Source: Candidatus Sulfotelmatobacter sp. (lineage in GTDB: Bacteria > Acidobacteriota > Terriglobia > Terriglobales > Acidobacteriaceae). From it: a stretch of DNA of 64,000 bases. Under the pieces are notes generated by a model. That model made no database searches, was not told the origin of the DNA, and saw only the letters and a list, made by a program, of their open reading frames with translations. How positions within the stretch are numbered: position 1 is the first letter of the stretch; the number at the start of each line of letters is the position of its first letter. This document shows positions 1-52,272 of this stretch, piece by piece. The stretch spans positions 1,674,001-1,738,000 of the forward strand of contig DASYBM010000004.1 in NCBI GenBank assembly GCA_036500765.1, read 5' to 3'. Position numbers and translations under genes: made by a program.

Positions 1-1342
1 TGCCTTCTTTCGATTCTTCGTAGACGCGCAGGAAGCCGTCGAATTTCAGCACCGATCCGGTCACGCGGAACCAGAAAACTTCGTTGCCATTTTTCGCGTC
101 GATGTCGACCGTCGTCTGGTCGAAGACCGCCGGCATAATCTGCGAAGCAACGAACCGTTGCCAGATCAGCTTGTAGACTTTGAACTCATCTTCTTTTAAG
201 TACTGCTTGATCTGGTCGGGATGACGCATCGCCGACGTCGGCCGAATGGCTTCGTGCGCGCCTTGCGCGTCTTTTTTGTCTTTATAGGCGTTTGGATTCT
301 CCGGCAGGTAAGCCGCGCCATATTCCTTGCCCACATATTCACGCACTTCCTGAATCGCTTCCGGCGCAACCCGCACCGAGTCGGTACGCATATAAGTAAT
401 GAGGCCGATCGAGCCTTCTTCGCCCAACTCCACGCCTTCATACAATCGCTGTGCGATCATCATGGTGCGCTTCACGCTAAAGCGCAGCTTGCGCGACGAG
501 TCCTGTTGCAGCTTGCTGGTCGTGAACGGAGGAGCGGCATTTCGGCGGCGTTCTTTTTTATCAACCGCCCGGACAATCCAGTCGGCCTTCTCTAGAGCGG
601 CACGAATCTTTTCCGCGTCTTCGCCGTTAGTGACTTCAATTTTTTCCTCGCCCTTGCCCAGAAACCGCGCATCGAACGCCGGCGGCTTGTTGGCCGCAAG
701 GTGCGCATCGATCGTCCAGTACTCGACCTTCTGGAACGCTTTGATCTCGCGTTCGCGCTCCACAATCAATCGCAGAGCCACGGTCTGCACACGTCCCGCC
801 GACAGGCCGCGACGCACTTTATCCCAAAGCAGTGGCGAAACCTGATATCCGACGAGCCGGTCGAGCACACGCCGCGCCTGCTGCGCATCGACCAGATTCT
901 GATCGATCGCCCGCGGATGCTCAAATGCCGCCTGCACCGCGCGCTTGGTAATTTCATTGAAGGTGACGCGCTGAATGCGCGGAGGCGGTTCCGCTTCACC
1001 CTTCTTTAACTTTACTTTCTTGGCTTTTTTCCCTTTGCCGTTGTCGCCGAGTTCAAACGCCAGATGCGCAGCGATGGCTTCACCTTCGCGGTCCGGGTCA
1101 GGCGCCAGATAAATCGAATCCGCCGCGCCCGCCAGCTTCTTCAGCTTGGCCACAACTTTTTCTTTGCCGGGGATGACGACGTAATCCGTCTCGAAGTCGT
1201 TCGACGTGTCCACGCCCAATGTGCTCTTGGGCAAATCCCGCACGTGGCCGTAGGAGGCCTCGACCGTGAAGCCTTTGCCCAGATATTTCTGGATGGTTTT
1301 CGCCTTACCCGGCGATTCGACAATGACTAAACCTTTAGACAA
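1..1342 (-). CDS. topA: DNA topoisomerase I, 3' end outside window
   Basis: Type IA topoisomerase that relaxes negatively supercoiled DNA by transient single-strand cleavage. The first 447 codons are visible. The N-terminus is a Toprim domain beginning KGLVIVESPGKAKTIQKYLG. The catalytic tyrosine is about residue 317 in the motif ITYMRTDS, matching Tyr319 of E. coli TopA, and is followed by the conserved AHEAIRPT. The start chosen is TTG at 1342, with GAGG five bases upstream; no ATG lies before the Toprim motif. The C-terminal zinc-ribbon region lies beyond base 1. It follows dprA on the same strand, a common bacterial order, but a four-helix-bundle gene has come between them. Confidence 0.95.
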   Translation of the reverse strand, partial: MSKGLVIVESPGKAKTIQKYLGKGFTVEASYGHVRDLPKSTLGVDTSNDFETDYVVIPGKEKVVAKLKKLAGAADSIYLAPDPDREGEAIAAHLAFELGDNGKGKKAKKVKLKKGEAEPPPRIQRVTFNEITKRAVQAAFEHPRAIDQNLVDAQQARRVLDRLVGYQVSPLLWDKVRRGLSAGRVQTVALRLIVEREREIKAFQKVEYWTIDAHLAANKPPAFDARFLGKGEEKIEVTNGEDAEKIRAALEKADWIVRAVDKKERRRNAAPPFTTSKLQQDSSRKLRFSVKRTMMIAQRLYEGVELGEEGSIGLITYMRTDSVRVAPEAIQEVREYVGKEYGAAYLPENPNAYKDKKDAQGAHEAIRPTSAMRHPDQIKQYLKEDEFKVYKLIWQRFVASQIMPAVFDQTTVDIDAKNGNEVFWFRVTGSVLKFDGFLRVYEESKEG

Positions 1343-1418
1343 TGGATCCTCTGTTTCCTTTAATTCCGTTTTCGAAGCTAGCACGAATTGGCGGGATGCA
1401 ACAAGTTACTGCAAGAAA

Positions 1419-1453
1419 GCTCTTGGCTCTTGGCTGTTGGCTTTTGGCTTGAA
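1419..1453. repeat. heptamer array, right-hand partner of 1848-1882
   Basis: Five 7-nt units of consensus GCTNTTG just downstream of the four-helix-bundle gene stop. The reverse complement closely matches the array at 1848-1882: both begin TTCAAGC and continue with CAANNGC units. The two therefore form an inverted pair around the gene. Confidence 0.85.
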
Positions 1454-1456
1454 TCC

Positions 1457-1822
1457 TTACGCCGCGGAGATATTTCTGATCTTTGCGGAGAGTGCGGATA
1501 ACATTTTCAGCACTCTCTCAGTCTGCGAGTTCAGCGGCGTAAAACCCTCTTCGGACAGGAAGCCCAAGTCTTTCGCCAAAAGAAGATGGTAGGAGAGTTC
1601 TGAGCCGGAACCCATCGCAATTTGGACAAATCGAGCCATCTCCCCATCCGACCTTCGCCCACAGCCTTCCGCCAAGTTCGCGGCAATCGAAGAAGAACAT
1701 CGTCGGATCTGGCTGATCATCCCGAAGCGCTCGTCCTTGGGAAACGTCATTGTTACTTTGTAGACAGCCAAAGTAAGCTGATGTGCTTCATGCCAAACCC
1801 GCAAGTCCTTGTAATTTCTCAT
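1457..1822 (-). CDS. four-helix-bundle protein (23S rRNA intervening-sequence / Avd-like family)
   Basis: A 121-residue all-helical protein of the S23/IVP family (TIGR02436 type), recognised by the opening NYKDLRVWHEAHQLTLAVY, the central FPKDERFGMISQIRRCSSSIAANLAEG and a polar C-terminal helix. Relatives form pentameric barrels and include Avd of diversity-generating retroelements; the cellular role of stand-alone members is unknown. The start at 1822 is preferred because GAGGAGG lies six bases upstream; an upstream in-frame extension would run through repeat DNA. The gene interrupts the dprA-topA pair and is bracketed by inverted heptamer arrays. A second, divergent copy lies at 29144. Confidence 0.88.
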   Translation of the reverse strand: MRNYKDLRVWHEAHQLTLAVYKVTMTFPKDERFGMISQIRRCSSSIAANLAEGCGRRSDGEMARFVQIAMGSGSELSYHLLLAKDLGFLSEEGFTPLNSQTERVLKMLSALSAKIRNISAA

Positions 1823-1847
1823 GAGGCGCCTCCTCGGTACTGAATGG

Positions 1848-1882
1848 TTCAAGCCAAGAGCCAAAGGCCAATAGCCAAGAGC
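1848..1882. repeat. heptamer array, left-hand partner of 1419-1453
   Basis: Five 7-nt units (TTCAAGC, then CAANNGC) lie between the dprA stop codon (1884-1886) and the start region of the four-helix-bundle gene. It is inverted with respect to the array at 1419-1453. Confidence 0.85.
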
Positions 1883-1883
1883 G

Positions 1884-3083
1884 CTAAAAGCTTTTCACAA
1901 AATTCTTCCCCGGCATCTGCCGCACTTTGCCGGCGAGCTCGAGTTCGAAGAGCGCGGCGAAAATTTCGGAGGACGATAACTGCGCCTCCAGCTTTTCGAC
2001 AATCTCATCGATGTGCGTGGCTTCGTCGGCTTTCAGCAGGCTCAGGATTCGCTTCTCGTGAGGAGGGAGCCCTTCGTCCGGGAATAGAGATGCGGAGGAG
2101 GCGCCGGGAGATTCAGGCGAGGCGGGCGGAGTCAATGCAAGTCGTACTTCTGCCGGGAGATCTTCCCACACATCTTCCCAGGTCGCGACCAGCTTGGCGC
2201 CCTGTTTGATCAGTGTGTTCGGTCCCCAGGAATTTTTGTTGGTGACGTTGCCGGGCACGGCGAAGACGTCGCGATTCTGTTCAAGGGCGCAGCGCGCGGT
2301 GATGCGCGTACCGGAATATTCCGCGGCCTCCACCACGAGCACGCCGCACGACATGCCGCTGATAATCCGGTTGCGGATGGGGAAATTTTGCGGCGCGGCA
2401 AACGTGCCCAGAGGAAATTCCGAGATCAACGCGCCGCCCAAAGCCAGAATCTGTTCGGCGAGACGCGAATTTTCTTTGGGATAAATCACGTCGACGCCCG
2501 TGCCAAACACCGCGACAGTCTTGCCTTTGGCGGAGATCGCGCCGCGATGACTGGCGGTATCGACACCGCGCGCCATGCCAGAGATGATGACGAGCCCCTG
2601 CGCGGCGAGATCGCATGCCAACCGCTCGGCCATGCCCGAACCATAAGGCGTGGGATGGCGCGTGCCCACCATCGCGATGCCAGGCCTGGTCAGCACATCA
2701 ACATTTCCGCGCACGCGCAGAATCAGTGGCGGATCGTAAATTTCCTTCAAGCGCGGTGGGTATGAGGCATCGTCGAGCGAGAGCAAGGTCACGTCGATCG
2801 ATGCGGCCTGTGCAATCTCTTCGCGCGCCAGAGCCGCCGACTTGCCCGTGGCCAGCGATTGCGCCGAGACCGCTTGAATGCCGGTGCTCTCAAGCTCTGT
2901 CAAAGACGCGCGGAAAACAGCTGCGGCCGAGCCGAAATGCTCCACCAGCTTGCGCGCCCTGGTCGGGCCCAGGCCGGGAGTCAGCGAAATGGCCAGCCAT
3001 TCCAGCAGATGGGTCGAGGATGATGACGATGACGCGGATACCGCGGCGTTGGACACAATTCGCTCCGAGCGGACTGTAATCAC
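1884..3083 (-). CDS. dprA: DNA processing protein DprA
   Basis: DprA/Smf binds incoming single-stranded DNA and loads RecA during natural transformation. The 399-residue protein has an N-terminal helix-hairpin-helix-like segment (LTPGLGPTRARKLVEHFG). A Rossmann-like DprA core follows, containing MVGTRHPTPYGSG, IISGMARGVDTASHRGA and SGTRITARCALEQNRDVFAVPGN. The C-terminal part, after a Pro/Ser linker, is a winged-helix domain. The GTG at 3083 gives the longest frame. A second GTG at 3056, preceded by GGAG, has the better ribosome binding site and may be the true start. A comF gene in the same window (48896) also fits a competence potential. Confidence 0.95.
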   Translation of the reverse strand: MITVRSERIVSNAAVSASSSSSSTHLLEWLAISLTPGLGPTRARKLVEHFGSAAAVFRASLTELESTGIQAVSAQSLATGKSAALAREEIAQAASIDVTLLSLDDASYPPRLKEIYDPPLILRVRGNVDVLTRPGIAMVGTRHPTPYGSGMAERLACDLAAQGLVIISGMARGVDTASHRGAISAKGKTVAVFGTGVDVIYPKENSRLAEQILALGGALISEFPLGTFAAPQNFPIRNRIISGMSCGVLVVEAAEYSGTRITARCALEQNRDVFAVPGNVTNKNSWGPNTLIKQGAKLVATWEDVWEDLPAEVRLALTPPASPESPGASSASLFPDEGLPPHEKRILSLLKADEATHIDEIVEKLEAQLSSSEIFAALFELELAGKVRQMPGKNFVKSF

Positions 3084-12583: not shown

Positions 12584-12593
12584 AAGAAGCTTT

Positions 12594-12684
12594 CAGCTCT
12601 CAGCTATTAGCTGCTAGCTACTAGCTTCTAGCTTCTAGCTCCTAGCTCCTAGCTTCTAGCTCCTAGCTGCTAGCTAGTAGCTTG
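12594..12684. repeat. thirteen-unit heptamer array, consensus TAGCTNC
   Basis: Thirteen consecutive 7-nt units, with bases 1-5 nearly invariant (TAGCT, first two units CAGCT) and the last two variable. It lies between lnt and the P-loop gene; the last codons and the TAG stop of the latter (12670-12672) are within the array. The same unit recurs at 18308. Confidence 0.92.
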
Positions 12685-18307: not shown

Positions 18308-18356
18308 AAGCTTCTAGCTGCTAGCTCCTAGCTTCTGGCTTGGAGCTGCTTGCTTC
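18308..18356. repeat. seven-unit heptamer array, TAGCTNC family
   Basis: Seven 7-nt units, the first four close to TAGCTNC as at 12594-12684 and the last three degenerate. It lies between pspA and the glycine-rich membrane-protein gene, whose last codons and TAG stop (18328-18330) are made of array DNA. Confidence 0.82.
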
Positions 18357-26040: not shown

Positions 26041-26082
26041 TCGGTCGTTGGTCGTCGGTCGTTCGTCGCCGGTCGTCGGTTT
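26041..26082. repeat. six-unit heptamer array, consensus TCGGTCG
   Basis: Six 7-nt units of consensus TCGGTCG fill the gap between the CorC-type gene stop (26101) and the dppB ATG (26040), touching the start codon. The related unit GTCGTCG occurs at 31834. Confidence 0.85.
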
Positions 26083-27486: not shown

Positions 27487-27882
27487 GGAAGAGCAATTCT
27501 AACATTTCAAAGGCCGTTCTCAGTTCTCGGTTCTGAGTTCTCAGTAGGAATGCTGCGTCACCGGTTGCGCTTTCGGCGCGGCGGGCGAGGACGTCCCGCC
27601 GGACAGCCGCCGGGACGGCGGCGCTACTTTTCATGTGCGGGTCACAAAAATTGGGGCTGGATCGGCTATCCTTATTATGAGACCCTCGGTCTAACTGGGC
27701 AGGCGGGCGATGGGTTAGCAGTAACGAGGCGGCGACTGCCGCATCCGGACAGAAATTCAATCATAGTTCTGAAATCGCAGGAACAAAAGCAATACCGGGC
27801 CCGTACAAACCTTTGAGAGCAGCGGAAGCGCTCCTTATCCCACTTGGCAGCAACAATTCGCAGTAACAATTTAGGAGGCGTT
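27487..27882. other. 396-bp divergent intergenic region with repeats
   Basis: Lies between the divergent CorC-type and MacA-like genes, so it must contain both promoters; no clear -35/-10 pair was picked out. It holds a four-unit heptamer array (27515-27542) and a GC-rich inverted stretch around 27585-27625. Confidence 0.5.
27515..27542. repeat. four-unit heptamer array, consensus AGTTCTC
   Basis: Four 7-nt units of consensus AGTTCTC about 30 bases upstream of the CorC-type gene start. Confidence 0.75.
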
Positions 27883-29102: not shown

Positions 29103-29134
29103 AGTCCCGAGTTGAGAGTCCTGAGTCGCGAGTC
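29103..29134. repeat. heptamer array, left partner of 29537-29570
   Basis: About four and a half 7-nt units (consensus NNGAGTC) between the adaptor stop and the four-helix-bundle gene. The reverse complement shares GACTCGCGACTCAGGACTC with the array on the other side. Confidence 0.85.
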
Positions 29135-29143
29135 CGGCTCACC

Positions 29144-29575
29144 ATGAGTTATCGAGACTTAGTCGCGTGGAAGAAAGGGATGGAGCTCGTCAAAAGCGTT
29201 TACGGGGTCACCGACTCGTTTCCACAAAACGAGATGTATGGGTTGATGAGCCAGCTTCGACGGGCGGCAGTTTCAATTCCGAGCAACATTGCGGAAGGAC
29301 AAGCTCACTACACAAATCGAGAATTTGTCCGATTCCTGCGACTCGCGCGAGGTTCGCTCGCCGAAATTGAAACTCAACTTTTGATCGCCCAAGACCGAAA
29401 GTATGTGTCGAAGGCAAGAGTGGACGAGTTGCTTAAACAGACCGACGAACTGGGAAGGGTGCTCAGCGGTTTGATCAAGTCAATGAAAGAATCGCTGGGC
29501 GACGATAGACAGACGCCCTTCCGACCGCACAATCTGAACTCGGGACTCGCGACTCAGGACTCGCAACTCCGATGA
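29144..29575 (+). CDS. four-helix-bundle protein (23S rRNA intervening-sequence / Avd-like family)
   Basis: A 143-residue member of the same family as the 1457 gene, opening SYRDLVAWKKGMELVKSVYGVTDSFPQNEMYGLMSQLRRAAVSIPSNIAEG, which contains the family core. The two copies share the motif plan but differ at most positions, so they are not a recent duplication. The gene separates the adaptor from the first permease and ends in ATGA, overlapping the permease start. Its last residues (NSGLATQDSQLR) are encoded by the right-hand heptamer array. No clear ribosome binding site precedes the ATG. Confidence 0.87.
   Translation: MSYRDLVAWKKGMELVKSVYGVTDSFPQNEMYGLMSQLRRAAVSIPSNIAEGQAHYTNREFVRFLRLARGSLAEIETQLLIAQDRKYVSKARVDELLKQTDELGRVLSGLIKSMKESLGDDRQTPFRPHNLNSGLATQDSQLR
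29537..29570. repeat. heptamer array, right partner of 29103-29134
   Basis: Five 7-nt units (consensus GACTCNN) at the end of the four-helix-bundle gene, touching its stop codon and the next ATG. Inverted relative to 29103-29134. Confidence 0.85.
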
Positions 29576-30831
29576 CTCTCTCCGAAATTCTGCGCCAGGC
29601 CTTTGCCACCTTCCGGGCTCACAAGATGCGGACGTTTCTCACGATGTTCGGAATCGTGTGGGGGATCGCGTCGGTGATTATCCTGGTAGGACTGGGGCGC
29701 GGCTTCAGCGTCGACCAGAAAAAGCACATGCAGAGCCTGGGCAAGGATCTGGTCATCCTGTGGGGCGGACGCACCAGTTCGCAGGTGGGCGGGCGCGCCG
29801 CGGGCAGAGAGATTCATCTCAACGTCGGCGATGCGGAGTTGATTCGCGACGAATGTTATCTGGTCAGAAATGTCAGTCCCGAATTGCGGCGAACGATTCC
29901 TGAAGTGAGCCAATACAATCTGGCGAGTCGTGGCGTAGTCGGGATGTGGCCGTCCTATCAGGATTTCCGCTCGCTGAAGATTTCAGAAGGTCGGCGGATC
30001 ACCGACGACGACGAGCGCGAGGCGCGGCGCGTGCTGGTGATGGGTTCGAAAGCCTACCGGCAACTGTTTCCGGGGCAGCCCGCAATCGGCGCGACCGTGC
30101 TGGTGCAGAGTGTTCCTTATTTAGTGGTTGGAGTTTTGCTGGAGAAAAAGCAGAACTCGAATTACAGCGGCCCCGACAACGACTACTTATTCGCGCCGTA
30201 CTCGGCGATATCGCGCGACTTTCCGCCGCCGACCAAGCCCGGCGCTGGAATCTTGCGAGGCTATCTGGACGACATTGTTTTTGAAGTTGGCGATCCGGAA
30301 GAACACGAGGCGGCCGTTCTTCAGGTGCGAAGCGTTCTGGCGCGCGTGCATCACTTTGACGCTCTCGACAAAGACGCGCTGTTTATTTGGGACACCATGG
30401 AAGGCGCCAAGTTGCTGGACAAGATTTTCGGCGTGGTTACGCTCTTTTTCGGGTGCGTGGCGATTGTGACTCTGTGCCTGGGCGGCATCGGCGTGATGAA
30501 CATCATGCTCGTGTCAGTCACAGAGCGCACCCGCGAGATTGGCACGCGCAAGGCCATGGGCGCGACGAAACGCGATATCTTGCGCCAATTTTTCGCCGAG
30601 TCAGCCATGCTCACGGTGGTCAGCGGCGTGCTTGGGCTCAGCTTCGGCATCGGAATCTGTTCGGCTATGGAAGCGCTGCCGCTTCCTGACTTCGTTCCGC
30701 ACCCAATCGTTTCCTGGATCTCGATTATCGCTTCGATTCTGACACTTTCGTTGATTACCGTGACCGCAGGCATGTATCCCGCCCAGCGCGCCGCGGATAT
30801 GACACCTGTGGAGTCACTACGCTATGAATAA
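29572..30831 (+). CDS. MacB/FtsX-type ABC permease (no ATPase domain)
   Basis: A 419-residue permease with the MacB layout: N-terminal membrane helix (MRTFLTMFGIVWGIASVIILVGLG), a large periplasmic MacB_PCD domain (about 60-270), then three C-terminal FtsX helices. The conserved GGIGVMNIMLVSVTERTREIGTRKAMGATKRDILRQFF is present. MacB of E. coli carries its ATPase in the same chain; here it is missing, so a separate ATP-binding subunit is required and is not encoded nearby. The start overlaps the four-helix-bundle gene stop by four bases. Confidence 0.9.
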   Translation: MTLSEILRQAFATFRAHKMRTFLTMFGIVWGIASVIILVGLGRGFSVDQKKHMQSLGKDLVILWGGRTSSQVGGRAAGREIHLNVGDAELIRDECYLVRNVSPELRRTIPEVSQYNLASRGVVGMWPSYQDFRSLKISEGRRITDDDEREARRVLVMGSKAYRQLFPGQPAIGATVLVQSVPYLVVGVLLEKKQNSNYSGPDNDYLFAPYSAISRDFPPPTKPGAGILRGYLDDIVFEVGDPEEHEAAVLQVRSVLARVHHFDALDKDALFIWDTMEGAKLLDKIFGVVTLFFGCVAIVTLCLGGIGVMNIMLVSVTERTREIGTRKAMGATKRDILRQFFAESAMLTVVSGVLGLSFGIGICSAMEALPLPDFVPHPIVSWISIIASILTLSLITVTAGMYPAQRAADMTPVESLRYE

Positions 30832-31831
30832 AAATCGCATTCTCTCTTCTGTATCCGTGTCCGGCCGATCTTCATTTGCAAACCCATTTGCAAACCCGTT
30901 TGCAACGCCATTCGCAACATCAGTTGCGATGTCGGCGATCGTGCTGGTCGTGCTTTTCTCCTCGACGATGGCTATGGCTTCGACACCGCAGGGCAGCTTC
31001 GAAAGAACGCTCACCGTAAGCGGCCCTGTCGATCTCGAGGTGCTCACCCACTCCGGCGACGTCACGGTTCGCGCCGGCGGCTCGGGATCGGTCTTCATCC
31101 GCGGCAAAATCTACGTTGGCGATCACTGGCTAATGGGCAGCCGCGAGGGCGACGTTCATCAGATCGAGCAGAATCCTCCCATCCGGCAGGAGGGCAATGG
31201 CATTCACATCGACTACGTCAACATACGCAACATCTCGGTCGATTACGAGATTACTGTGCCCGCCGACACTGTCGTCCGCACTCGCAGTGGCTCGGGAGAT
31301 CAGACCATTGAAGGCACACGCGGCAACGTGGATACGCAAACCGGCTCGGGCGATGTGAAGCTGGCCAACCTGACCGGCGAAATTCACTTGCAGACCGGAT
31401 CGGGTAACATTCGGGCCCGGCAGATTTCGGGCCCGGTACGCGGTGGCACGGGCAGCGGCGACGTTGAGATCGAGGAAGCGTCCGCGGGCGACATCGACCT
31501 GCACACCGGCTCGGGCAACATTACCGCGCGAGGCGTCCAGGGCGGCTTTCATGGCGAGACCGGAAGCGGCGACGTCACAGCTGAAGGCACGCAGACGGGC
31601 GAGTGGGAGATTCAGACTGGCTCGGGCAACGTGCATGTTCGTCTGCCCTCCAACGCAGCCTTCGATGCCGATATCTCAACCAGTTCCGGGACGGTCGACG
31701 TGGGCGAACCCATAGAGACGACTGTGCAGGGCCGCATCGGCGATTCGCACAAACAGATTCGTGGCAAAGTGCGCGGCGGCGGGCCGCTTCTGCGGGTGCG
31801 CACGGGCTCGGGAGATATTCATATTCAGTAG
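30824..31831 (+). CDS. secreted DUF4097-type beta-helix protein
   Basis: A 335-residue exported protein. After a hydrophobic helix (VAMSAIVLVVLFSSTMAMA) the mature part is a DUF4097-like repeated beta structure. The ladder repeats TGSGDV or TGSGNI about every 20 residues, from RSGSGDQTIEGTRGNVD to RTGSGDIHIQ at the end. The N-terminal FANPFANPFATPFAT stretch is encoded by four 12-nt tandem repeats (30875-30922). It overlaps the upstream permease by eight bases and sits between the two permeases, so it is probably co-expressed with the efflux system. Function unknown. Confidence 0.82.
   Translation: MNKNRILSSVSVSGRSSFANPFANPFATPFATSVAMSAIVLVVLFSSTMAMASTPQGSFERTLTVSGPVDLEVLTHSGDVTVRAGGSGSVFIRGKIYVGDHWLMGSREGDVHQIEQNPPIRQEGNGIHIDYVNIRNISVDYEITVPADTVVRTRSGSGDQTIEGTRGNVDTQTGSGDVKLANLTGEIHLQTGSGNIRARQISGPVRGGTGSGDVEIEEASAGDIDLHTGSGNITARGVQGGFHGETGSGDVTAEGTQTGEWEIQTGSGNVHVRLPSNAAFDADISTSSGTVDVGEPIETTVQGRIGDSHKQIRGKVRGGGPLLRVRTGSGDIHIQ
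30875..30922. repeat. four 12-nt tandem repeats within the DUF4097 gene
   Basis: Consensus TTTGCAAACCCN, in frame, encoding FANP/FATP in the N-terminal segment before the signal helix. Confidence 0.85.
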
Positions 31832-31833
31832 GA

Positions 31834-31964
31834 CCGTCGTCGGTCGTCGGTCGTTAGTCGTTGGTCATGCTTAGATGACAGGCGAGGGTGGGGTAACTGC
31901 CGCAGCCACCGACTATCGGCGGGCGACTACGCACTGACGACTGAAGACCGACGACTGACGACTC
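31834..31964. repeat. pair of inverted heptamer arrays with 54-bp spacer
   Basis: Left array (31834-31868, five units, consensus NGGTCGT) and right array (31923-31964, six units, consensus ACGACTG) are inverted relative to each other. They fill the space between the DUF4097 gene and the second permease. No coding sequence lies between them. Confidence 0.85.
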
Positions 31965-33889: not shown

Positions 33890-34730
33890 AGCACCTGCTC
33901 TGGGATCCCAACGCACCGGATGGTTCGGCGGGAGATGGGTCGGCGGGAGATGGGTCGGCGCCGGGTGGGTCGGGGCGGCCATTCTGACTCTGGCCATACC
34001 GCTTACAGTTTGGCCAAGTTCGCTTCTTCCTGCCCTAGGCGCGGCCGTAGATCGAGCGGGAGAAAACGTTCCCCCTCCACTTCGAATTCCTTCCAATATT
34101 GCCTGGACCAGAGAAACCATCGCCACTGCCTCCGCCGGCGCTGCTCTGCGCGGATTGTTCATTGCGCGGCGTTGCGAACATTGCCACGGGACCGAAGGCT
34201 TCAGCGCGGAATCGGCAATCCCCAATTTAGCCGGAATGGATCCCCTGGTGATGTGGAAGCAACTGGAAGATTTCCGATCCGCAAAACGCGAATCGCCGGT
34301 GATGCAGAAGATCGCTGCCGTACTCTCCGGCAAAGATTCCGCCGACCTGGCGGCGTATTACTCCATGCTTCCGACTTCCCCTGACCCGCAGGACACGAGG
34401 GCATTCCCTCAAGCCCCGCTAAGACCGGCCGATACGGGGGTAGCAGGGGGACTCATCGCCAGCGGCGACGCCGGGAGAGGGATTCCACCGTGCCAGGCCT
34501 GCCACGGCCCGGTCGGTCATAAGATGGGGGCTCCGTCCCTCGCGACGCAGAACGCCGACTACATTCTCACGCAGCTCGAGAAATTCGCGGCCGGAACTCG
34601 CGCCAATGACATTGACATGCCTATGCGCAGCATCGCATCTGACCTTACGGAGGAAGAGCGGCGCGCCTTAGCCGAATATTATGGCGCCGGTCTTGGACAA
34701 TCCCCTGCGGGCGCGACTGTTCATAAATAG
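33876..34730 (+). CDS. dihaem cytochrome c (c4-like)
   Basis: A 284-residue exported c-type cytochrome with two CXXCH sites, CEHCH (100-104) and CQACH (206-210), each in a cytochrome c fold with a later Met as probable sixth ligand. An N-terminal hydrophobic segment (VGAAILTLAIPLTVWPSSLL) serves as signal or anchor. Before it, 15-nt tandem repeats encode WFGGRWVGGRWVGAGWVG. The start is GTG at 33876, with AAAGGG upstream. It likely passes electrons to or from the CuA protein encoded just before. Confidence 0.85.
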   Translation: MNRVKAPALGSQRTGWFGGRWVGGRWVGAGWVGAAILTLAIPLTVWPSSLLPALGAAVDRAGENVPPPLRIPSNIAWTRETIATASAGAALRGLFIARRCEHCHGTEGFSAESAIPNLAGMDPLVMWKQLEDFRSAKRESPVMQKIAAVLSGKDSADLAAYYSMLPTSPDPQDTRAFPQAPLRPADTGVAGGLIASGDAGRGIPPCQACHGPVGHKMGAPSLATQNADYILTQLEKFAAGTRANDIDMPMRSIASDLTEEERRALAEYYGAGLGQSPAGATVHK

Positions 34731-34770: not shown

Positions 34771-34832
34771 CTTATTGCGATCAATCGTTTATCGATCAAT
34801 CGCTTATCGATCAATCGTTTATCGATCAATCA
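34771..34832. repeat. 15-nt tandem repeats, consensus TTTATCGATCAATCG
   Basis: Three full 15-nt units plus a degenerate first unit between the cytochrome c gene and a small hypothetical gene, whose stop codon and last codons lie in the last unit. Rich in ATCGAT and GATC. Confidence 0.85.
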
Positions 34833-49857: not shown

Positions 49858-49954
49858 AGGTTTCAAAGTTTCAAGGTTGCAAAGGTTAAGAATGCCGGCC
49901 AAGAATTGGAATTCTAAGACTTTGAACCTGAAACCCTGGAACCTTGAACCTGGG
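49858..49954. repeat. inverted pair of 7-8-nt arrays between comF and HNH gene
   Basis: Left array 49858-49890 (GTTTCAA units) and right array 49918-49954 (TTGAACC/TGAAACC units) are reverse complements in pattern with a 27-base spacer. The unit is 7-8 nt and less regular than the other arrays. Confidence 0.75.
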
Positions 49955-52144: not shown

Positions 52145-52169
52145 GGGCGTCAGGCGTCAGGCGTCAGGC
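52145..52169. repeat. three-unit heptamer array, consensus AGGCGTC
   Basis: GGGCGTC followed by two AGGCGTC units and a broken fourth. Confidence 0.7.
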
Positions 52170-52272
52170 GAACGAAGCGTGTTGCAGTCTGCCCGGGACG
52201 AAGAGGGCTGTAACCAAGGTCCTGAAGTCCGAGGTTGGAGCTCTGATGCCCGACGCCCGCCCCTGTGCAATC

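Follow-up and report, generated by a model that had tools for sequence, protein, structure and literature searches.

Why does a small four-helix-bundle gene lie between two inverted arrays of a seven-nucleotide repeat, in the middle of a common host gene order? The question is raised by a stretch of 64,000 nucleotides from Candidatus Sulfotelmatobacter sp. of the Acidobacteriota (assembly GCA_036500765.1, contig DASYBM010000004.1, positions 1,674,001 to 1,738,000), here called the window, where a gene of the S23p family (PF05635) is found between dprA and topA. With a probability of about one half, we consider this feature to belong to a selfish system of two parts, an S23p gene and inverted arrays of its cognate 7- or 8-nt repeat, in the form that carries the gene. 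Two copies of the gene with its arms are located in the window:

1457-1822, minus strand: four-helix-bundle (S23p, PF05635) gene, 121 amino acids, ATG at 1822 with AGGAGG 6 nt ahead of it
1852-1882, minus strand: 5' arm of the first copy, a heptamer array reading GCTCTTGGCTATTGGCCTTTGGCTCTTGGCT on the gene strand (TRF and period-7 run; inverted repeat with 1419-1450)
1419-1450, minus strand: 3' arm of the first copy, inverted heptamer array (TRF, period-7 run, inverted repeat)
29144-29575, plus strand: second four-helix-bundle gene (PF05635, 131.9 bits; bAvd PF22296, 35.5 bits, under its cut-off of 40)
29103-29135, plus strand: 5' arm of the second copy, heptamer GAGTCNN (TRF, inverted repeat)
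29538-29569, plus strand: 3' arm of the second copy, inverted (TRF, period-7 run, inverted repeat)

The protein encoded at 1457-1822 scores 124.9 bits against PF05635 (cut-off 33.8) and 116.3 bits against TIGR02436. Its arms make one inverted repeat that spans 1419-1882 and each begins with TTCAAGC on its inner side, as a preliminary description of the window had pointed out. When compared with 1000 dinucleotide shuffles of the flanks, the inverted-repeat score of 27 was observed to exceed the best shuffle (15), and none of the shuffles gave runs of 11.5 or more in both flanks (best 6) against the observed period-7 runs of 20 and 11.5. The second copy has the same layout with an unlike heptamer, also in agreement with the earlier account, and its inverted-repeat score is 25 where the shuffles reach 14 at most. 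The open reading frame (ORF) of this second gene reads through its own 3' array (29538-29575), so that the C-terminal end of the protein is encoded by the array. The sole gene inside either copy is PF05635, with no transposase gene within, and the earlier idea of a cassette with array ends holds in that one family and one architecture form a unit bounded by its arrays.

The same layout was found to be widespread. By eye, each of the seven PF05635 genes in the genome is enclosed by inverted arrays of 7 or 8 nt, with a different unit every time; the unit is 8 nt long at locus L007 while L005 has two nested heptamers. For a wider survey, 64 and then 40 more Acidobacteriota loci were collected (104 in total) from among the top-scoring PF05635 matches of their searches, which is not a random draw, and 102 of them were long enough to test (L095 and L104 were too short). 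An all-phyla scan with one genome per species supplied the best 80 of 540 relatives, mostly metagenome-assembled and from about twenty phyla by record title, and a scan of viral contigs supplied ten more loci; 88 of these could be tested after L180 and L195 were left out as too short. A few loci belong to both sets (at least L183 = L058 and L188 = L091), and L145 and L205 both come from one Maribacter genome. The cut-off for calling arms was an inverted-repeat score of 16, a value attained or exceeded by 14 of 300 mismatched flank pairs; in the all-phyla and viral set, about 5% of 200 mismatched flank pairs score 15 or more. Arms above the cut-off were observed at 92 of the 102 Acidobacteriota loci and 65 of the 88 others (157/190 together), so that the prospect raised earlier, that most such genes would lack heptamer flanks, does not hold. 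Plasmid-borne examples include those of Trichormus variabilis ATCC 29413 plasmid C and Nostoc sp. ATCC 53789 pNsp_a, and a search of phage records returned no match. One viral contig (L221) carries a very long AGGCTTC array upstream of its four-helix-bundle gene, with a period-7 score of 196.5. At L005 and L296, two or three arrays with different heptamers are nested or adjoining, as would be seen if younger elements had inserted into existing ones.

The anatomy of the arms is narrowly defined. The period is 7 in 133 of the 157 passing arm pairs, 8 in 20 and another or none in the remaining four. In the flanks of the first 64 Acidobacteriota loci, period-7 runs (score of at least 9) were found 44 times upstream and 48 times downstream, as against 7 and 8 for period 8, 2 and 1 for period 9, 1 and 0 for period 12 and zero for periods 4, 5, 6, 10 and 11. 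The median arm length is 32.5 nt (quartiles 28-37) in the Acidobacteriota set and 32 nt (28-35.5) in the all-phyla and viral set. The two arms are 85% identical in their best register, a figure inflated because the register was picked by score, and 67-68% identical when shifted by one unit (7 nt); adjacent units within an arm are 71% identical. Read inward, AG outnumbers CT in 56 of 92 loci and is outnumbered in 23, with 51 against 12 of 65 in the other set. We noticed that L036 and L096, whose proteins are 83% identical, have heptamers that look reverse-complementary (AGCCCGA and GGGCTTC), so that the polarity of the array may have flipped.

The spelling of the repeat goes with the protein. 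We compared 92 loci where the heptamer is clear, with sharing defined as at most one mismatch in any rotation. At non-homologous sites, a heptamer was shared by 8 of 634 pairs with 30-40% protein identity, 14 of 1927 (40-50%), 32 of 993 (50-60%), 20 of 170 (60-70%), 16 of 18 (70-80%) and 1 of 3 (>80%). At homologous sites, the respective counts are 10/115 (40-60%), 25/68 (60-70%), 51/60 (70-80%) and 29/29 (>80%). No p-value is given for this sharing because the pairs are not independent. Over 141 loci, the mean heptamer distance drops from 3.4 at 40-45% identity to 0.8 at 70-80%. The period also tracks the protein, as 13 of the 20 loci with an 8-nt unit have another such locus as nearest neighbour where 2.6 would be expected and 10 was the maximum in 2000 permutations.

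Arrays of this kind also occur away from the gene. Across 464 kb of the genome (the window and a further 400 kb), heptamer arrays form 15 inverted repeats whose arms are no more than 700 nt apart; two enclose the gene and the other 13, with spacers of 14-123 nt, do not. Period-7 arrays number 32 in the further 400 kb. The gene-less inverted repeats and lone arrays of the window, which the preliminary description had missed, are the following (none is assigned to a strand):

31836-31962: gene-less heptamer inverted repeat of the GGTCGTC type, spacer 75 nt, inverted-repeat score 20
49858-49953: gene-less, worn inverted pair of the AGGTTCA type (TRF; inversion judged by eye)
12588-12682: lone heptamer array of about 13 units, AGCTNNT type, period-7 run 55.5
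18309-18341: lone heptamer array, AGCTTCT type (period-7 run)
26043-26080: lone heptamer array, GGTCGTT type (period-7 run)
27516-27545: lone heptamer array, AGTTCTC type (period-7 run)
52146-52170: lone heptamer array, GGCGTCA type (period-7 run)

Within the Acidobacteriota, the abundance of arrays depends on the gene family. Sampled stretches of 20 genomes with PF05635 (300 kb) hold 39 period-7 arrays, as against 3 in 356 kb of 20 PF05635-free genomes, seven of which belong to the family of the window itself; those three are two homopolymers and one low-complexity stretch. Period 8 is the only other period that is higher with PF05635 (7 vs 2). Counted by genome, period-7 arrays are present in 11 of 20 with the gene and in 0 of 20 without it (Fisher test, 7e-5), or 2 of 20 in the raw count (0.003). 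The condition named earlier as counting against the cassette, arrays without relation to the gene, holds in part only: gene-less hairpins do occur at orthologous sites and elsewhere, but the arrays relate to the gene because sampled genomes without the family have none apart from the three simple-sequence matches. Array abundance was further observed to go with the cognate protein among 45 congeners. Where a full-length S23p reaches 70% identity or more to that of L071 (8 genomes), the median number of exact AGTTCTC matches is 37, compared with 2 in the remaining 37 genomes (p = 4e-4). GTCGTTN matches have a median of 30 in the 7 genomes whose S23p is at least 65% identical to that of L076 and of 4.5 in the other 38 (p = 7e-4); genomes G001, G019 and G040 fall in both cognate sets. 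Control patterns read backward gave 1 and 14 matches over all 45 congeners. In ten PF05635 genomes of other phyla (400 kb), 14 runs of period 7 were found, where any other period between 5 and 11 gave 0-5, a count that is supportive only, since there are no gene-free partner genomes in those phyla.

A retro-type origin, earlier put forward as a possibility, is rejected for this genome, which has no RVT_1 match; genomes G000, G047, G051 and G059 likewise carry arrays without RVT_1. A Y1/RAYT enzyme as hidden partner was also rejected: 11 of the 20 PF05635-free genomes have Y1_Tnp, the transposase family compared, yet no array in the sampled stretch, and G051 and G059 have arrays without Y1. The arrays thus track neither reverse transcriptases nor Y1 transposases in the sampled genomes. 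In the window S23p proteins, no nuclease domain was found by Pfam, which returned PF05635 and the sub-threshold bAvd match alone.

These counts bear on the view that mutation alone is responsible, with slippage making the arrays, template switching in quasi-palindromes mirroring them and the S23p gene being a tolerant passenger. The tandem units with their drifting sequence are what slippage would give, the arms mirror each other unit by unit in the manner given above, and slippage with 7 nt as the polymerase contact was proposed in an earlier survey (cited in PMC4679880). Such a process leaves unexplained the lack of arrays in the PF05635-free genomes sampled, as well as heptamer and period following the protein and periods other than 7 and 8 staying near background, and we consider it improbable.

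The gene is largely found in the sense direction of its surroundings. With neighbour direction taken from the longest open frames, both neighbours point the same way as the gene in 50 of the 60 Acidobacteriota loci that gave a clear call and in 37 of 45 in the other set, and a gene opposed to a tandem pair of neighbours was found 2 and 3 times respectively; uncalled loci were excluded (42 of 102, being 36 ambiguous and 6 short, and 43 of 88, being 30 ambiguous, 12 short and 1 without an ORF). Without the orthologues at the dprA site, which are many in the Acidobacteriota set, 31 of 41 are co-directional and 2 antisense. This strong bias, together with a predicted transcript of the window copy that closes on its arms (z = -5.0), might suggest an element that acts at the RNA level, akin to the 23S rRNA intervening sequence (IVS) but free-standing. 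Here the arms would fold in the mRNA, RNase III would free the S23p message or S23p would bind the stem to control the operon, and spread would be incidental. The IVS of Coxiella offers a precedent with a like ORF between complementary ends that RNase III cuts in vitro and heptamers before the ORF (PMC4990558). RNA pairing should, however, favour G.U among the arm mismatches, and over the 157 pairs we counted 185 sense-strand G.U against 215 A.C. The match between the arms is therefore at the DNA level or recent, and selection on an RNA stem has left no trace in these mismatches. None of 20 scanned loci lies in rRNA, the window copy being at dprA-topA, and the gene-less hairpins and the abundance of cognate arrays would both be left unexplained. 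We regard the RNA-level explanation as unlikely, if somewhat less so than mutation alone.

The host genes on either side of the first copy allow its history to be followed:

1884-3083, minus strand: dprA, upstream host gene (PF02481, 258.5 bits)
2-1384, minus strand: topA, downstream host gene, truncated by the window edge (PF01131, 285.9 bits)

All three genes lie on one strand within the dprA-topA order, as first described. A dprA search of the genus (L105-L134, with 29 of 30 junctions callable and L133 not; further dprA matches exist, so that there are at least 30) showed the gene at 24 of 29 junctions and not at the other five. Adding loci selected by the gene gives 27 of 32 distinct junctions, which is a biased count. 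The proposed check for empty sites gave no clean one among the five gene-less junctions: L119 keeps fused arms, L128 and L134 hold remnants and L115 and L127 have other DNA. In L127, about 1.2 kb of unrelated DNA stands between dprA and topA in place of the four-helix-bundle gene. The earlier reading as a perhaps mobile cassette is partly supported. The dprA-topA copy is not a recent insertion, since 24 of 29 junctions hold the gene, and exchange of the unit is supported indirectly by gene subtypes that disagree with the host tree. When mapped on a DprA and TopA tree of 22 genomes, the four gene subtypes need 12 changes, and subtypes C and B are rejected as clades (AU test, p = 7e-5 and 2e-10). 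Each subtype carries a distinct heptamer variant. Most variants are built on AGCT, a core also present at the dprA end, where the final codons of dprA (AGC TTY TAG) are similar to the outermost heptamer that relatives have at this junction. Relative to the window copy, identity at the site is 44-75% for the gene, 69-92% for dprA and 79-93% for topA, a gap that partly reflects replacement of subtypes.

At a macA/macB-like junction, the genes of which score below the curated cut-offs for those names, the S23p gene was found in this species alone among 19 junctions read. By eye, 16 of the 18 other congeners have gene-less hairpins of several heptamers and two have none; these two, L297 and L303, were considered as clean empty sites and set aside, since their array-free intergenic DNA could not be aligned with the others by eye.

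The S23p gene itself is under purifying selection. The ratio of nonsynonymous to synonymous substitution (dN/dS) is 0.04-0.07 in the 6 of 13 gene pairs with unsaturated dS (0.5-2.2), while dS is saturated in the remaining seven, with dN of 0.12-0.20. Such selection would also be expected if S23p were a domesticated DNA-binding protein and the arrays chromosomal sites, for regulation or chromosome structure, kept by host selection; the recurrence of array hairpins at the one orthologous macA/macB-like junction in 16 of 18 congeners fits this as well. Host service sits poorly with the variation of heptamer type at that same junction among relatives, with the coexistence of several heptamers per genome and with subtypes at dprA-topA that conflict with host phylogeny, and we give it as little likelihood as mutation alone.

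How, then, would the two-part selfish system work? We propose that the S23p protein recognises its own repeat, probably by direct binding. The array pair, able to fold as a hairpin, would be the unit that is kept, copied and exchanged, and its spread or exchange would be helped by S23p. Gene-less forms may be non-autonomous relatives spread over the genome and lone arrays their remnants, while the gene would ride on host transcription units in the sense direction. Because no nuclease domain was found in the protein, we can guess that host replication or repair acting on the hairpin moves the DNA. Solved structures of the family, 2gsc and 2rld, have five chains each, and a match between five 7-nt units and a pentamer is suggestive only. 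Structure 2gsc is XCC0516, which from its tag we take to be an X. campestris gene.

Several observations weigh against the selfish system. The arm cut-off was missed by 10 of 102 and 23 of 88 loci, including L155, the sole testable locus labelled as archaeal. No period-7 array occurs in the sampled stretches of 9 of the 20 PF05635 genomes, and the comparison of genomes with and without the gene is confined to one phylum, whose genomes are not phylogenetically independent. The cognate counts are pattern matches so that one long array scores several times, and controls with the heptamers swapped are weak yet not null (p = 0.09 and 0.05). In genome G004, the protein is 96% identical yet there are only 5 matches, and AGTTCTC is matched 57 times in G014 and 59 times in G034, with the cognate gene not found in either. 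A pairwise scan for specificity residues over 141 proteins gave small effects only (top positions 69, 85, 8, 12 and 56) and no clear determinant. Among the junctions read at dprA-topA and macA-macB, there is no clean empty site or target duplication; the dprA-topA gene is old and widespread, and its subtype swaps could be ordinary homologous recombination. No protein pair above 83% identity was found at unrelated sites, so there was no recent jump of the gene-bearing form within the sample. Recent transposition of a gene-less hairpin was considered for L265 and rejected, as the flanks of two copies may be related too and local duplication is possible. At L265 (14364-17101), three gene-less AGCTTCT hairpins lie within 2.7 kb, two of them sharing identical arms.

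Elsewhere in the window, a 12-nt tandem repeat, CATTTGCAAACC, is located at 30873-30917, close to the start of an ORF at 30824, and two 15-nt tandem repeats, GATGGGTCGGCGGGA and CGATCAATCGTTTAT, are found at 33919-33973 and 34778-34831.

Seven-letter repeats have been described in several bacteria: GGGAATC in Xanthomonas, mostly as four units, and GGGGA(T/C)T in Nostoc (PMC4692102), TAACTGA in Beggiatoaceae (PMC4679880) and heptanucleotides in Calothrix (as cited in PMC4692102). X. campestris has 186 arrays, with 70 cases of two convergent arrays (PMC4692102). The papers on Xanthomonas, Nostoc and Beggiatoaceae treat the repeats as G-quadruplex or regulatory sequences (PMC4692102, PMC4679880). 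Heptanucleotide repeats are said to be over-represented in bacteria, and polymerase slippage has been put forward as their cause (PMC4679880, PMC4692102), 7 nt being the length that touches the polymerase according to the earlier survey (cited in PMC4679880). A word search of the main texts of PMC4692102 and PMC4679880 gave no mention of S23 or four helix, and among the best-ranked matches in the open-licence PMC literature (bioRxiv being outside its scope) there is no prior report of a link between S23p and heptamer arrays. Our results suggest that an overlooked selfish element lies behind these puzzling repeats, and they tie S23p to heptanucleotide repeats for which slippage was the proposed cause (PMC4679880, PMC4692102). 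More tentatively, and as an extension we would sooner doubt than accept, S23p may be the source of bacterial heptanucleotide repeats in general. It would then form a selfish system without a nuclease, present in many phyla: a ring-shaped protein covering 7 or 8 nt would recognise its own tandem repeat, might also write it or homogenise its units, and would set mirrored arrays to the left and right of its gene. The 23S rRNA IVS would be a branch that settled in rRNA. With the two-part system, the orphan family S23p (PF05635) gains a partner and a testable role, and the origin of bacterial heptamer repeats becomes open to direct experiment.

Among known systems, homology has been suggested between the PF05635 structure 2GSC and Avd (4DWL) of diversity-generating retroelements (PMC10053308). 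The present copies differ from Avd as the second scores 35.5 bits against PF22296 (cut-off 40) and 34.9 bits against NF033474 (cut-off 80), the first has no Avd match and the genome has no RVT_1. By protein, the 23S rRNA intervening sequences are the nearest relatives. Those of Coxiella and Leptospira share the protein family and an ORF between complementary ends; in Coxiella these ends form a 28-bp stem that RNase III cleaves in vitro, and heptamer repeats precede the ORF (PMC4990558). The S23p element described here differs in being located between protein genes, in its many gene-less copies and in having the repeat form both arms.

The closest likeness in way of life is to RAYT/REP. Its hallmarks are a gene between inverted repeats, repeats that co-evolve with the protein, a gene that outpaces its neighbours in evolution, repeat abundance that follows the cognate gene and gene-less palindromic copies that exceed the genes in number (PMC2817692). 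For S23p, the gene is likewise flanked by inverted repeat copies (92/102 and 65/88 loci), the repeat co-varies with the protein, repeat abundance goes with the cognate gene (G004, G014 and G034 being the exceptions), the gene evolves faster than dprA and topA at that site and gene-less hairpins outnumber genes. The S23p system is, however, not a member of RAYT/REP because both protein and repeat differ. S23p, with no nuclease domain by Pfam, stands in place of the HUH/Y1 tyrosine transposase, and each arm is a run of tandem 7- or 8-nt units, about 32 bp long, where REP has a single palindrome with a GT(A/G)G head; the layout is also found under the record titles of about twenty phyla. S23p would thus represent a second, unrelated route to the RAYT/REP way of life, taken without a recognisable nuclease.

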